Shown piece after piece: positions 35,576-57,764 of a DNA stretch of 64,000 nt; position 1 is the stretch's first letter, and every line of letters begins with the position of its first letter. Below the pieces are notes generated by a model. It saw only the letters and a list, made by a program, of their open reading frames with translations, was not told the origin of the DNA and did no database searches. The position numbers and the translations under genes were made by a program. Origin of the DNA: Geobacteraceae bacterium GWC2_55_20. GTDB lineage: Bacteria; Desulfobacterota; Desulfuromonadia; Geobacterales; Pseudopelobacteraceae. The stretch lies in contig MGZK01000004.1 in assembly GCA_001802125.1 (NCBI GenBank), positions 16,130-80,129 of the forward strand, written 5' to 3'.

Positions 35576-35680
35576 AGTGGATTTTCATCCCGTGGAGCTT
35601 TCTAAACGTGTTCTATGCCGTGCCGGCATTGATTCCGCGGTAGATTTGCAATTACTCTGAAAGGAACGTTCATTACGCCG

Positions 35681-37261
35681 ATGCCAGAAGGATTACGAAG
35701 ACTTATAGAGCCTTTTATGGCGCTTTCCCCAGGGAAAAGGATGCTCATTGTCGGGGTGGCTTTATTATCATCCGTGGCGTTTGCCGTGCTGATATTTGTA
35801 GCCAACCGTACCGATTACCGCCCGCTTTTTACCAATCTTACCCCTGAAGATGCTGGGGAAATCGTCAAAAAAATGAAGGATAGCAAGGTTCCTTACCAGA
35901 TTACCGATGATGGCAAGGGAATACTTGTTCCTTCCGACAAGGTTTACGATCTGAGATTGACGCTTGCTTCCGAAGGTCTTCCCCAGGGTGGCGGAGTCGG
36001 TTTTGAAATTTTTGACCGGAAAAACTTCGGCATGACCGAGTTTGTGCAGAAGCTTAATTACCAGCGCGCCCTTCAGGGGGAGTTATCCAGGACAATAGCC
36101 CAATTGACCGGTGTTGAACAGGCAAGGGTGCACCTGGTAATACCGGAGAAATCACTTTTCAAGGACAATGAAAAGCCGGCCACTGCCTCGATAGTACTTA
36201 AAATGAAGTCGAATCGCGCACTGCGTGATGCAGAAGTGCAGGGTGTGGTGCATCTTGTGTCATCTTCGATCGAAGGCATGGACCCTGAGCATGTGACCGT
36301 GCTTGACAGCCGGGGGAAAATTCTCAGCAAAGGCGGCAGCAGCGATCCTACCAGTCGCATGACATCGGCCATGCAGGAAACGCAACGAAATTACGAAAAG
36401 AATGTCGAGGAACGGATACAATCCCTGCTTGATCGCATTGTCGGTGGCGGCAAGTCCGTGGCTCGGGTTACTGCTGCTTTTGATTTCAAGCAGGTCGAGC
36501 GGCTTGAGGAGAAGTTCGACCCGGAAAGTATTGCCGTTCGCAGCGAGCAGCGCACCGAAGAAAAAGGGGCATCGACAACAGCCAGCAGTGGAGTCCCCGG
36601 AGTCCAGACTAATCTTGGACGAACGGCCAACGCTGGGGGGGGGACGTCTGGAGGCGGCTCCAAAAACGATGAAACTCTCAACTATGAGGTCAGTCGATCC
36701 ACCGCAAAGATCATTGAGCCGATTGGCGCTTTGAGTAAAATCTCGGTTGCGGTGCTGGTAGACGGCAAATATGAAGCGCCCGCCGCCACCAAGGAAGGCC
36801 AACCGGCCAAGGCAAAATATACCCCCCGCTCTCCTGATGAACTTCAAAAGATTGAGACACTCGTAAAGAGCGCTGTCGGTTTCAACCCTGAGCGAGGCGA
36901 TCAACTGAGCGTGCAGAATATTCCCTTCCAGGAGACCGGAGAGTTCGGTGCAACCGAAACCGTCAAGTGGTGGACAAACCCATTTTTCATGTCTCTGGCT
37001 AAAAACCTGATGATCGGGGTCGGCTTCCTGGCGTTGATCATGTTCGTGATCCGCCCGCTTCTGGCATCGCTCAAAACATCAAGGCCGGCTTCTCTTGAAA
37101 GTTTCGAGCCGCTTGGCGAGGGCAGGGAACAGCTCACCACGACAGAACGTGTGCAGCTTGCCACGCAAATGGCGGAACAGCAAAGTCTGATAGAACAGGC
37201 AAAAAAGGATCCATACCAGGTTGCCCAGATACTGCAAAACTGGGTTGGCGAGGACAAGTAG
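35681..37261 (+). CDS. fliF: Flagellar MS-ring protein FliF
   Basis: YRPLFTNLTPEDAGEIVKKMKDSKVPYQITDDGKGILVPSDKVYDLRLTLASEGLPQGGGVGFEIFD. Confidence 0.97.
   Translation: MPEGLRRLIEPFMALSPGKRMLIVGVALLSSVAFAVLIFVANRTDYRPLFTNLTPEDAGEIVKKMKDSKVPYQITDDGKGILVPSDKVYDLRLTLASEGLPQGGGVGFEIFDRKNFGMTEFVQKLNYQRALQGELSRTIAQLTGVEQARVHLVIPEKSLFKDNEKPATASIVLKMKSNRALRDAEVQGVVHLVSSSIEGMDPEHVTVLDSRGKILSKGGSSDPTSRMTSAMQETQRNYEKNVEERIQSLLDRIVGGGKSVARVTAAFDFKQVERLEEKFDPESIAVRSEQRTEEKGASTTASSGVPGVQTNLGRTANAGGGTSGGGSKNDETLNYEVSRSTAKIIEPIGALSKISVAVLVDGKYEAPAATKEGQPAKAKYTPRSPDELQKIETLVKSAVGFNPERGDQLSVQNIPFQETGEFGATETVKWWTNPFFMSLAKNLMIGVGFLALIMFVIRPLLASLKTSRPASLESFEPLGEGREQLTTTERVQLATQMAEQQSLIEQAKKDPYQVAQILQNWVGEDK
36635..36643 (+). 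repeat. G9 homopolymer inside fliF CDS
   Basis: cgct GGGGGGGGG acgtct. Confidence 0.95.
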
Positions 37262-41468: not shown

Positions 41469-41496
41469 AATTCATACAGAAAGGAGGTGAAAAACA

Positions 41497-44400
41497 ATGA
41501 ATGCAGGACAGATGTTTATGAATATGATGTCGGGCGTGACCCAGACGGTTACTCCTGACGCGATGGCAGCAGTACCGCTGAATAAATCCGGCGTAAATTT
41601 TGACAATCTTCTTGGTGAAATACGCATGCAGGCAGATGCGAAGATGGTTGCCAATGTTGACATTGCTGGTGTTTATGCTGTGTCGGAAGAACCGGAGTTG
41701 CCTTCGGAAACTTCCGGAACGGTGGCTGCGCTGAAGTTGGGAACAGCCCGGACTAGTGGTGCTTCTCAAGCTAATGGCGAAATAGTCATGCTTGAAGCGG
41801 CAGCATTGGATACGCTGATTGATGGTTCTTCCGATGCCTTGCCCATCACTCCGGAGATGTATCCAGCTGAGGCGCAAATGGTTTTGGCGGCTTATGCGCA
41901 ATCCAGCATGATTCCGCATGTCAACACTCCGCCCAGTCATGAAGATGACAGCGGACAGAACGTACTAGCCAAGGCTGTCGAAGTTGACCGGTCGGCAACC
42001 AGAACCGGGGCTCAAGTAACGTACCTTTCCGAAGTTGCAGCACCGGAGCAACCGTCTGTTAAGACCGCTGATTTGTCAACATCAGCAAAAGAAACCGCAA
42101 CACAACAGTCAGTACCTGTAATACAGGCAACGGCACGTCAGGAGAATCATCCCATGTCTGCCAATGCTCCAGTCGTGAAATCCTCCGGTCAGAATCAGGC
42201 TGCTGATGTTCAACAGCCAGGCAGAATGCCGTCAGTCAACACTCCGCCAAATCCTGAAGTTGACTCCGTACAGAATGTACTACCTAAGTTAGCCACTATG
42301 GACCAGCTGAAAATTAAAGCCGATGCCCCAGTAACTTCCATTTCCATGGAACAGCTGCAATCACCAGTAATCCAATCGATTGATCTACCCCCCCCCCGGT
42401 TGGAAACTGTAACCCAGGCAGCATCTGTGACAACTGCAAAGCCAGCTGCGCCATATCAAGCTGCAATCTTACCTGCAGTGGAAGTTGCTGCATCTAAACC
42501 TGAAACGGCCCGTCAGGAGAAACCTCTCATGCCGGCCAAAGCTCCTACAGTGGAATTGTCCGAACAGAATCAGGCTGCTCCGCGTCCACAGCCAGGCAGA
42601 ATGCCGTCAGTCAACACTCCGTCCAGTCAAGAAGTTGACTTCGTACAGAACGTACAACCCAAGGCTGCTGTAACCGACCAGCCAATAATTAAAATCGAGG
42701 CCCCCGTAATGTTCCGCACTTCGGAACAGCGGCAATCATCATCAACACAGTCTGTCGAACAGTACTCCCGGACCGTCCATCCAGAGCAACAGACCGCCCG
42801 GCTGGAATCCGTTGCCAGCCCGACGACTGACAGACCGGTTGCCAAGCCTGCCGAACAAACGCACCGTTTCGCAGTTGCAGCACCTGAGCAACCGTTGACT
42901 AATCCGACAGTTATATCCGTATCGGCAAAAGAAACCGCAACACAACAGTCAGCAGCTGTAATAACTGCAAAACCGGCAGAGCCAGCTTCAGCTTCATTCC
43001 ATGCTGTAACGACACCGGTTGTGGAAGTTGCTACAGCGAAGCCTGAAACGGCCCGTCAGGAGAAACCTCTCATGCCGGCCAAAGCTCCTACAGTGGAATT
43101 GTCCGAACAGAATCAGGCTACTCCGCGTCCACAGCCAGGCAGAATGCCGTCAGTCAATACTCCGTCCAGTCAAGAAGTTGACTCCGTACAGAACGTACAA
43201 CCCAAGGCTGCAGTAACCGACCAGCCAATAATTAAAACCGAGGCCCCCGTAACGTTCCGCTCTTCGGAACAGCGGCAACCATCAACAACCCAGTCCGTCG
43301 AACAGTACACCCGTACTGTCCAGCCAGAGCAACAGACCGCCCGGCTGGAATCCGTTGCCAGCCCGACGACTGACAGACCGGTTGCCAAGCCTGCCGAACA
43401 AACGCACCGTTTAGCAGTTGCAGCACCTGAGCAACCGTTGACTAATCCTACAGTCTTATCAGCATCAGCAAAAGAAACCGCAACACAACAGTCAGCACCT
43501 GTAATAACTGCAAAACCGGCAGAGCCAGCTTCAGTTCTATCCCAAGCTGTAACGACACCGGTAGTGGAAGTTGCTACAGCGAAACCTGAAACGGCCCGTC
43601 GGGAAAAACCGCTCATGGCGGCAAATGCTCCAGTTGTGGAACTGTACGGGCAGACACGGGATGCGAATATTCAACAGCCAGACAGAATGCCGTCTGTCAA
43701 CACTCCACCCAGCCATGAAGTTGACACCGTACTACAGAATCAGGAAACAAATGTTGCAGCGGACTTAAATCAGGTTGCAACCGGCCTTCAAACCAAGCCG
43801 AGCAGGGAATCCGCTCCGGTACGAAATGAAGCTGAATCATTATCCAAACCGGTTCTACAGGTTACTCCACTGCACCAGAGTGGATTGGAAACATTCCATG
43901 CCAAAGAGGCCGCCAAACCGGTTGTGCAAGAGACGGCTGTTCCGGAACCACCATCGGAAGTCTCTCAGGAAACGAGATTGCCCAATCGTGCAATCAGCAC
44001 ATCATCTGAGCCTGAGATCGAGTTCACTTTTACTTTGCCCAGGCCGATTACCGTTTCCAAGGCTCATTCTACTGAACCGAGTCGTTTGGCATCCACCAGC
44101 ACCGCTTTGAGGCAACAGATAATATCGCTTGATATTGAACCGTCTCAAAAACAGACTGCTGAATTAGGAACGGTAACTGCATTAAAGTTAGAAACGATAG
44201 TAACCCCAAGCAGTGCAGCAAGAGCGCAGGAAAATGGCAGAACGCCGGAAGCGGTATTGTCATCCGCTACGGAAACGGGCTTGACACGTAAGCTGCACCC
44301 CGAAGTTACCTTGAAAGAAATTGATCCTGGCTCTTCGGTAGCAAAAACCGACGAAACAAACAAGCAGAAAGCCTCTTCGGACTCCCACTCCGGAACGATG

Positions 44401-45153
44401 CAACAGATGGTCGGTAGAGCGGCGATTCAGGCTATCCCGAGTACTGATGGCGAAAACGCCAGGGCAAGTTTATCCCCGTCATCTGCAAAGGGGAATGGGA
44501 CTCCAATTCAAAGTATTGTCCCTTCTGGTGAGGTGATGCAGACCTCGGATGATTCAATGGGCAGTAATGGCGATCAAGCCGGGTCCGGCCCAAAACCGGA
44601 TAATCAGATGTTGGCCCACCAGGTTAATGCACAAACAAAACCGGAAAATCAGCCGGTTGCTTCAGTGCATGGTTCCAGATTCAACCCGGAACAATCCCGC
44701 CAGGATCTTCCGGAGCAGGTTGTGCATCAAGTCCGGGAACGCCTCGGTCAGCACGAGGTAAAAGCCGGGAATCAGCAGATTACATTGACCCTGTCACCGG
44801 AAAATATGGGTGAACTGAAGATGAACCTGAATCTTCAGGGTCAGCGCTTGTCGGTTGAAATCGTGACCGAAAACCGTACCGTGCGGGATGCAATTTTGCA
44901 GCATTCCGATTCTCTCAAGGAAACTCTGGCCCGTCAGAACATAACCGTGGAATCCTTTGATGTTACCACTAATGGTCGTGGTACTGGAAACCCGGGACAA
45001 AACCAGGATGCCTGGAGAGAACTGGCCAGGCAGAAACAGCAGCAATTGTGGGCTTCAACAGGTGGTTATGCCCTTCCGCAGATGAACGTGTCTTTAAACC
45101 CTGCGGCGTATCAGGCAAAAAACGAGCATGCCATGCTCGACATCCATTATTGA
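41497..45153 (+). CDS. fliK: Flagellar hook-length control protein FliK, very long repeat-rich variant
   Basis: 1218 aa; C-terminal QQITLTLSPENMGELKMNLNLQGQRLSVEIVTENRTVRDAILQHSDSLKETLARQNITVESFDV is the Flg_hook domain; strong SD AAAGGAGGTGA. Confidence 0.92.
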   Translation: MNAGQMFMNMMSGVTQTVTPDAMAAVPLNKSGVNFDNLLGEIRMQADAKMVANVDIAGVYAVSEEPELPSETSGTVAALKLGTARTSGASQANGEIVMLEAAALDTLIDGSSDALPITPEMYPAEAQMVLAAYAQSSMIPHVNTPPSHEDDSGQNVLAKAVEVDRSATRTGAQVTYLSEVAAPEQPSVKTADLSTSAKETATQQSVPVIQATARQENHPMSANAPVVKSSGQNQAADVQQPGRMPSVNTPPNPEVDSVQNVLPKLATMDQLKIKADAPVTSISMEQLQSPVIQSIDLPPPRLETVTQAASVTTAKPAAPYQAAILPAVEVAASKPETARQEKPLMPAKAPTVELSEQNQAAPRPQPGRMPSVNTPSSQEVDFVQNVQPKAAVTDQPIIKIEAPVMFRTSEQRQSSSTQSVEQYSRTVHPEQQTARLESVASPTTDRPVAKPAEQTHRFAVAAPEQPLTNPTVISVSAKETATQQSAAVITAKPAEPASASFHAVTTPVVEVATAKPETARQEKPLMPAKAPTVELSEQNQATPRPQPGRMPSVNTPSSQEVDSVQNVQPKAAVTDQPIIKTEAPVTFRSSEQRQPSTTQSVEQYTRTVQPEQQTARLESVASPTTDRPVAKPAEQTHRLAVAAPEQPLTNPTVLSASAKETATQQSAPVITAKPAEPASVLSQAVTTPVVEVATAKPETARREKPLMAANAPVVELYGQTRDANIQQPDRMPSVNTPPSHEVDTVLQNQETNVAADLNQVATGLQTKPSRESAPVRNEAESLSKPVLQVTPLHQSGLETFHAKEAAKPVVQETAVPEPPSEVSQETRLPNRAISTSSEPEIEFTFTLPRPITVSKAHSTEPSRLASTSTALRQQIISLDIEPSQKQTAELGTVTALKLETIVTPSSAARAQENGRTPEAVLSSATETGLTRKLHPEVTLKEIDPGSSVAKTDETNKQKASSDSHSGTMQQMVGRAAIQAIPSTDGENARASLSPSSAKGNGTPIQSIVPSGEVMQTSDDSMGSNGDQAGSGPKPDNQMLAHQVNAQTKPENQPVASVHGSRFNPEQSRQDLPEQVVHQVRERLGQHEVKAGNQQITLTLSPENMGELKMNLNLQGQRLSVEIVTENRTVRDAILQHSDSLKETLARQNITVESFDVTTNGRGTGNPGQNQDAWRELARQKQQQLWASTGGYALPQMNVSLNPAAYQAKNEHAMLDIHY
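42388..42397 (+). repeat. C10 homopolymer inside fliK CDS
   Basis: gatcta CCCCCCCCCC gg. Confidence 0.95.
42502..43735 (+). repeat. 543-bp in-frame tandem repeats within fliK (two full copies plus a partial third)
   Basis: GAAACGGCCCGTC(A/G)GGA... at 42502, 43045 and 43588, i.e. exact 543-bp spacing. Confidence 0.93.
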
Positions 45154-55892: not shown

Positions 55893-56687
55893 ATGTTCCC
55901 GCTGCTCCCCTTTCCGTCTCCCCGCGAAGTCATCTTTTTCATGCTGGTATTAAGCCGTGTCGCCGGTATTTTTGCCGCACTTCCGGTATTCGGAGGAAGA
56001 AGACTGCCGATTCGTATTAAGGTGGTCACGGTTTTTATGATAACGTTGGTGTGTTTTCCAACGCTATCAATTGCAGTCCCGGAAACGCCGACGGATGTTT
56101 TCAGTCTGGGCTTGCTGGCTTTAAGCGAGTTGATGGTCGGACTGACTCTGGCCTTTATTACCCAGATTATTTTTGCCGCGGTCGAGTTCAGCGGCCAGAT
56201 CATCGGCATGCAGATGGGGTTTACGATATCGTCGATAATTGACCCGTCCCAGGGTACTCAGACCCAGATCATGTCGGTGGTTCAGACCCTGTTTGCAACA
56301 CTCATGTTCCTGTCTCTTAATATCCACCACCTATTTATTCGTGCCATCATAGACAGTTTCAGGGTCATACCGCTCGGTGGATGGCATCTGAACGGAGAAC
56401 TGCTGAATTTTTTGATCCAGCGTACCGCCGACATTTTCATCATCGGAATCCGGCTGGCGGCTCCGGTAATGGTGGCACTACTACTTACGACCGTAGCGCT
56501 CGGAATAATGGCGCGTTCCTTTCCGCAGATGAACGTCTTTATGATCAGCATGCCGCTGAATATCGGTTTGGGACTGATAATATTAGGCATGACGCTTACC
56601 ATCTTCTTCCATGTGCTCGAGGTTTCGTTCGGACATCTCAAAGGCCAGATCGATACGCTCTACAGACTTATGGCAAAGGGGGGATGA
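55893..56687 (+). CDS. fliR: Flagellar export protein FliR
   Basis: Multi-TM; FVFSLGLLALSELMVGLTLAFITQIIFAAVEFSGQIIGMQMGFTISSIIDPSQGTQTQIM-type FliR sequence. Confidence 0.95.
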   Translation: MFPLLPFPSPREVIFFMLVLSRVAGIFAALPVFGGRRLPIRIKVVTVFMITLVCFPTLSIAVPETPTDVFSLGLLALSELMVGLTLAFITQIIFAAVEFSGQIIGMQMGFTISSIIDPSQGTQTQIMSVVQTLFATLMFLSLNIHHLFIRAIIDSFRVIPLGGWHLNGELLNFLIQRTADIFIIGIRLAAPVMVALLLTTVALGIMARSFPQMNVFMISMPLNIGLGLIILGMTLTIFFHVLEVSFGHLKGQIDTLYRLMAKGG

Positions 56688-56690
56688 CCT

Positions 56691-57764
56691 CTGGCTGAAG
56701 ATGTAGACAAACACTCCAAAACAGAACAACCCACCGGCAAAAAACTCGATAAGTCACGGGAAAAAGGGCCGCCGCCGATGAGTCAGATGCTGACGTCATC
56801 GCTTACCCTGCTGGTGGGCATCGTCAGCCTCTATATTTTCGGCAGTTTCATGATGGATGGGCTTAAGAAGAGTTCTGTCGACATATTCTCTTCCATGGGC
56901 ACTTTCAAACTGACCGAAGCCAACCTGCATATCCTGATGATTAAGCTGTTCGGTACGATCGTTTTGCTGCTGACGCCGTTGATAATCACGATTATAGCCA
57001 CATCCATGCTTTCAAGCATGATTCAGGACAGCGGCCAGCTGGAATTCCGTATGTCGCGACTGACCGTTGACTTTAGCAAGATCAGTCCGATGAGCGGATT
57101 CAAGCGGCTGTTCAACAAAGATGCCCTGGTGGAGATGGTCAAATCCCTGCTGAAGCTGCTGGTGGTGGCCTGGATTGCCTATCGCGTCATCAGTGATGAA
57201 ATGCAGAACATCACTTTTTTGGCGGAAGCCGACATCCAGGCCATTTTCAGCTTTGTTGGCCATATCGCCTTCAAAATCGTTACCCATACCTGCGGAATCC
57301 TGATTGTTCTTGGCATCCTTGATATGATGTACGTCAAGTGGCGCTATATTGAAAATCTCAAGATGACGAAGCAGGAGGTCAAGGACGAGCGTAAGGAATC
57401 CGAAGGAAACCCGGAGATCAAGGGCAAGATCAAGAGCATGCAGTATCAAATGGCGCGCCGGAGAATGGTAAAAATAGTTCCGATGGCTGATGTGGTCATC
57501 ACCAACCCGACCCATTATGCCGTTGCTCTCAAATATGACCGGCAGAAGATGATCGCGCCGCTGGTGCTGGTCAAGGGTGTGGATGTAATGGCCGAAGCAA
57601 TCAAAAAAATCGCCAGGGAGCATCACATCACGCTGGTGGAAAACCGGTTTCTGGCGCGCGAGCTGTACGACCAGGTAAAGGAGAACGAGCCGATTCCCGA
57701 GTCTCTGTATGCCGCGGTTGCCGAGGTTCTGGCGTATGTCTACAAGCTGAAGGGGAAAACATGA
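56691..57764 (+). CDS. flhB: Flagellar export protein FlhB, probable CTG initiation (ORF-track ATG at 56778 is internal)
   Basis: In-frame 5' extension LAEDVDKHSKTEQPTGKKLDKSREKGPPPMSQML matches the conserved FlhB N-terminus; ADVVITNPTHYAVALKYD autocleavage site downstream. Confidence 0.85.
   Translation: MAEDVDKHSKTEQPTGKKLDKSREKGPPPMSQMLTSSLTLLVGIVSLYIFGSFMMDGLKKSSVDIFSSMGTFKLTEANLHILMIKLFGTIVLLLTPLIITIIATSMLSSMIQDSGQLEFRMSRLTVDFSKISPMSGFKRLFNKDALVEMVKSLLKLLVVAWIAYRVISDEMQNITFLAEADIQAIFSFVGHIAFKIVTHTCGILIVLGILDMMYVKWRYIENLKMTKQEVKDERKESEGNPEIKGKIKSMQYQMARRRMVKIVPMADVVITNPTHYAVALKYDRQKMIAPLVLVKGVDVMAEAIKKIAREHHITLVENRFLARELYDQVKENEPIPESLYAAVAEVLAYVYKLKGKT

Follow-up and report, generated by a model that had tools for sequence, protein, structure and literature searches.

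In the window analysed here, a 64,000-nt stretch of DNA from Geobacteraceae bacterium GWC2_55_20, the flagellar genes fliR and flhB lie side by side on the forward strand. The fliR open reading frame (55893..56687, +) matches Pfam Bac_export_1 (E 4e-69), ends with ...MAKGG and terminates at a TGA read directly from the sequence at 56685-56687 (+). The junction reads ...ATG GCA AAG GGG GGA TGA CCT CTG GCT GAA GAT GTA GAC AAA CAC TCC, and reading on from the CTG at 56691..56693 (+) gives GCT GAA GAT GTA GAC AAA CAC TCC AAA ACA GAA, which encodes the conserved N-terminus of FlhB. Counted from this CTG, which the junctions of relatives and the FlhB tree point to as the start codon, flhB (56691..57764, +) encodes 357 aa. 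Its membership in the FlhB family (PF01312, Bac_export_2) is indicated by a full-length profile match (residues 9-350, profile 2-335 of 335, E 7e-118) and by the NPTH autocleavage motif in the translation (...VVITNPTHYAVAL...). In the window sequence fliR and flhB share one frame, with 3 nt between TGA and CTG, a stop and a start only a few nucleotides apart as in coupled gene pairs. A previous sequence-only reading had stated that no in-frame ATG, GTG or TTG occurs from the fliR TGA to position 56778, and direct reading of the sequence bears this out. The first canonical in-frame codon is the ATG at 56778..56780 (+), codon 30 from the CTG and the start chosen by the ORF finder, which we reject as the true start for the reasons given below. 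Upstream of the CTG, the last fliR codons AAG GGG GGA double as the ribosome-binding site of flhB, as part of an extended Shine-Dalgarno (SD) sequence, AAAGGGGGGAT, recognized by predicted pairing and conservation at 56675..56685 (+) within the fliR 3' end. In addition, an ATG overlaps the fliR stop (ATGA; 56684..56698, +) and opens another frame that encodes MTSG before a stop; it is not the flhB start.

We examined whether the segment between the CTG and codon 30 evolves as protein. Among 30 sequences of the same genus, the differences at codon positions 1/2/3 were 0.103/0.040/0.479 over codons 5-28 (syn:nonsyn 3.0), and 0.151/0.067/0.476 over the rest of flhB (syn:nonsyn 2.1). This divergence pattern indicates that codons 5-28 are translated and under purifying selection, and therefore that FlhB does not start at 56778. 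An ATG does stand at codon 30 in all 30 genus sequences compared, as would be expected if FlhB truly began there and the conserved upstream part lay outside the protein. However, this explanation is highly improbable given the strong third-position bias of the divergence in codons 5-28, and two further observations argue against it. FlhB proteins from other families of the order begin with ATG (GTG in one case) at nearly the same residue as the CTG or ACG described below, and most other genera of the family have no start codon at codon 30. Specifically, codon 30 encodes Met in the window's genus (g1) and in g9, and Q, K, S, R or T in the other family sequences shown, so that the family does not start FlhB at 56778.

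FlhB sequences were gathered from the window's genus, family and order, and the fliR-flhB junctions were read in 67 family sequences. This set includes a second flhB copy from G020 (L139, G020:C55), which is nearly identical to that of G098, a member of another genus; the contamination of G020 is 9%, and the copy is probably a foreign contig. The set excludes a divergent FlhB (L097, G044:C197) from a genome placed in the family, which has an ATG start and a weak SD and groups with the outgroup, suggesting transfer, a different flagellar system or a misplaced contig. Five genomes of the same genus (G007, G028, G033, G034 and G035; completeness 92-100%) gave no FlhB match, possibly reflecting loss of the flagellum.

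At the position of the CTG, the 67 family junctions carry CTG (35), ACG (29), TTG (2) or ATG (1, in G013), so every codon found there is AUG or one base off AUG, and 64 of the 67 orthologues share CTG or ACG, neither of them ATG, GTG or TTG, at one place. These junctions support the earlier proposal that CTG 56691 is the sole plausible start after the fliR TGA. ACG is restricted to the window's genus; of the eight remaining genera, seven have CTG and g8 has TTG. A near-invariant AAAGGGGGG almost always stands 7 nt ahead of the start codon in the family, the distance from the end of the G run to the start codon being 7 nt in 64/67 sequences. A pattern for the junction matched once and only once in every one of 55 family genomes, and never in the genomes of the order's other families. 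The KGG tail of FliR, present in the family, is absent from those other families, and the AAGGGGGGA tail of fliR is missing there as well. The recurrence in 67 family sequences together with the junction-pattern matches places the CTG junction beyond chance. In the FlhB tree, the start position shows 5 changes among four states; CTG is placed as ancestral in the family, and ACG as having arisen once at the base of g1. The window's own CTG clade (G000, the window genome, with G011 and G024) is nested within the ACG sequences, as is the ATG of G013. Read on this tree, the family seems to have begun with CTG and gained ACG once; the window's clade would later have gone back to CTG, and G013 would have moved to ATG.

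The shared junction length also bears on whether a ATGACCTCGGCT start is concealed by a recent indel or by a mistake in sequencing or assembly. Deleting one base would indeed yield an ATGA overlap, but the same junction length recurs in independent genomes of nine genera, single-contig assemblies included, and a junction shorter by one base was not seen among dozens of independent relatives' genomes. The alignment of fliR/flhB junctions among relatives, which had been proposed earlier as a check, thus rejects a 1-nt indel, and we regard this explanation as having a negligible probability.

A second explanation is that ribosomes read through the fliR TGA to produce a FliR-FlhB fusion. Clostridium has a natural fusion of FliR and FlhB (cited in PMC7064499), and in the window sequence and most relatives these two genes are neighbours in the same frame with one TGA between them. 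Nevertheless, stop codons part fliR and flhB here, and four relatives have tandem in-frame stops before the CTG (TGA TAA in G102 and G103, TGA TAG in G104 and TGA TGA in G046). In G045, fliR ends at TAG and its frame differs from that of flhB. These two observations lead us to reject read-through as a shared mechanism; a read-through fusion should keep one leaky in-frame stop at the junction, and no such conserved stop was found. Moreover, the start position varies only among AUG-like codons, and a published structure places the C-terminus of FliR in the periplasm but the N-terminus of FlhB, with both ends of its membrane domain, in the cytoplasm (PMC7064499). Read-through is accordingly very improbable. 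Among the three options offered by the sequence-only reading, CTG initiation is supported by the 67 junctions, whereas read-through fails on the tandem stops and the G045 frame, and the indel on the shared spacing.

The ATG overlapping the fliR stop offers a further alternative, in which ribosomes start at ATG 56684 and then shift by +1 into the flhB frame. This ATG is kept in 63/67 family sequences (GTG, CTG or a stop in the other four), although GGA is a minor Gly codon (169/1144 Gly codons in flhB). However, it is missing in G045, G098 and the second G020 copy, and the SD directly abuts it with no spacer. The frame that it opens yields no conserved product, its length ranging from 4 to 291 codons, and has no common slip site. 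We consider a start with frameshifting very unlikely, only slightly less so than read-through. The retention of GGA as the last fliR codon may be explained by the pairing of GAU within the SD; for the conserved A of the overlapping ATGA, SD pairing is only a partial explanation. The overlapping ATGA could possibly act as a decoy start or as a landing site for the terminating ribosome.

Pairing between AAAGGGGGGAU and the anti-SD was predicted to comprise 11 pairs with one bulged rRNA base at -13.5 kcal/mol, an energy that, like all SD energies given here, was computed with the near-universal canonical anti-SD, no 16S gene having turned up in the searched genomes, single-contig ones included. 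By the same calculation, all 33 other window genes compared pair more weakly than flhB (best -11.6, median -5.9 kcal/mol). The predicted pairing lies between -15.6 and -11.0 in 67/67 family sequences; for the 29 outgroup sequences, which start with ATG or GTG and come from other families and G044, the median is -3.0. Together with the 7-nt spacing, these values describe a strong SD at a proper distance from the start codon. The extended SD is near-invariant even at the third codon positions of fliR. In g1, the fliR codons further upstream have a mean third-position heterozygosity of 0.48, against 0-0.06 for the last five; neither the CCT nor the third base of the start codon varies. The Thr codons elsewhere in FlhB are mixed (ACC 322, ACG 134, ACA 124, ACT 109), so that ACG at the start in 29/29 cases is not plain codon bias; kinship inflates this count, but neighbouring codons on the same tree do vary. 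In addition, every sequence of the window's genus has U immediately before the start codon. For extended codon-anticodon pairing at chloroplast starts, U is reported to be favoured at -1 (PMC4587860), and it may help the ACG start.

Chloroplasts also provide the precedent for C-to-U mRNA editing, which produces AUG starts there (PMC9845219) and which would, by a single change, make either unusual flhB codon a canonical start (ACG to AUG, CUG to UUG). In bacteria, however, C-to-U start editing has not been observed (PMC9845219), and the edited C would occupy different positions in ACG and CTG. A search for conserved RNA structure around the start found none (the consensus energy was 0 across the family, and about -3 kcal/mol within the genus), which also argues against editing. 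We therefore regard editing as extremely improbable, more so than read-through or frameshifting.

The conserved codon class, the spacing, the SD and the translated N-terminus together point to initiation at the CTG or ACG itself. We propose, with a probability of roughly 0.86, that flhB starts at a near-cognate non-AUG codon, which is served by an extended SD and linked to the fliR stop by coupling. Ribosomes finishing fliR at the TGA, 3 nt upstream of the CTG, would be retained by the extended SD and would then start again, with ordinary fMet-tRNA, at the weak codon lying 7 nt past the G run. Ordinary fMet-tRNA is favoured because only CAT anticodons were found when initiator tRNAs with a changed anticodon were sought by a pattern search and by ARAGORN on seven of the best loci. 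In bacteria, such coupling requires two genes to overlap or to lie very close together, and coupled genes are enriched for those encoding subunits of the same complex (PMC10666635). CUG makes up 0.024% of bacterial starts, and its output in E. coli is about 0.9% of that of AUG (PMC11497404), so a large compensation would be needed; the strong SD and the stop-start coupling would provide it. Non-canonical starts with extended SDs in Staphylococcus aureus reach roughly 10-30% of AUG output (PMC13009471). The weak codon would probably keep FlhB at or below the level of FliR, and initiation at flhB would be expected to be sensitive to IF3. FliR is present in one copy per export gate, FliP5Q4R1 (PMC7064499), which makes the limitation of FlhB near or below FliR a plausible selective reason for the weak start. 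We infer initiation at this codon, coupling, a dosage role and IF3 sensitivity at flhB from its sequence features.

Several known systems share parts of this arrangement. A weak, conserved start codon other than ATG, GTG or TTG, preceded by an unusually strong extended SD at suitable spacing and with low output expected, is also found in infC and in S. aureus ccpN and cvfC1 (PMC13009471). In contrast to flhB, a structural flagellar gene with CTG or ACG that would be coupled to an upstream stop, these genes encode regulators or IF3 and use AUU or AUA with a mismatch at the third base. In Streptomyces, the weak GTC start of sigR likewise serves partner proteins encoded side by side and sets their ratio through IF3 (PMC5472188); repression of sigR by IF3 was established by experiment, whereas at flhB an effect of IF3 is a prediction. 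Pairs translated by termination-reinitiation resemble fliR-flhB in having a stop and a start a few nucleotides apart and products in one complex (PMC10666635), but in typical coupled pairs the genes overlap (ATGA, TGATG) and the starts are canonical, whereas flhB has a 3-nt gap, a CTG or ACG start and an unused ATGA. In the open-licence literature, we found neither a report of an ACG or CTG start for flhB nor one of a conserved bacterial ACG start. Non-canonical starts with strong SDs are already known; it is the genus-wide natural ACG start that was not found in that literature. On balance, we lean towards a lineage-wide ACG start with a middle-base mismatch, kept by selection in about 29 species of one genus, which, with an 11-bp SD in the upstream gene and coupling, would serve to limit dosage at the flagellar export gate.

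As a rule, gene finders recognize no starts other than ATG, GTG and TTG. Consequently, FlhB is possibly misannotated across the family, and its annotated sequences may be cut by about 17-53 residues. If the proposed initiation is correct, conserved use of ACG would add a codon with a middle-base mismatch to the natural start codons of bacteria, and sister species with ACG, CTG, TTG and ATG would form a natural system for studying how the SD and coupling compensate for a weak start, and for asking why a flagellum would limit FlhB.

The 33 window genes were also scanned against six relatives for conserved frames preceding the first NTG. Four further genes were flagged; three of them overlap the upstream gene, and the fourth (35633-37261) is marginal, with an extension only in some relatives. 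Thus, flhB alone stands out among the scanned window genes. Elsewhere in the window, a 93-codon ORF at 28039-28320 matches FlhB in the C-terminal part alone (residues 277-354, at about 43% identity), and a similar separate short FlhB-like copy occurs in most relatives with FlhB. Within the flagellar cluster, a 1220-codon frame at 41491-45153 has matches that begin only after about codon 1005 in 5/6 relatives, its long N-terminal part being aligned in one.
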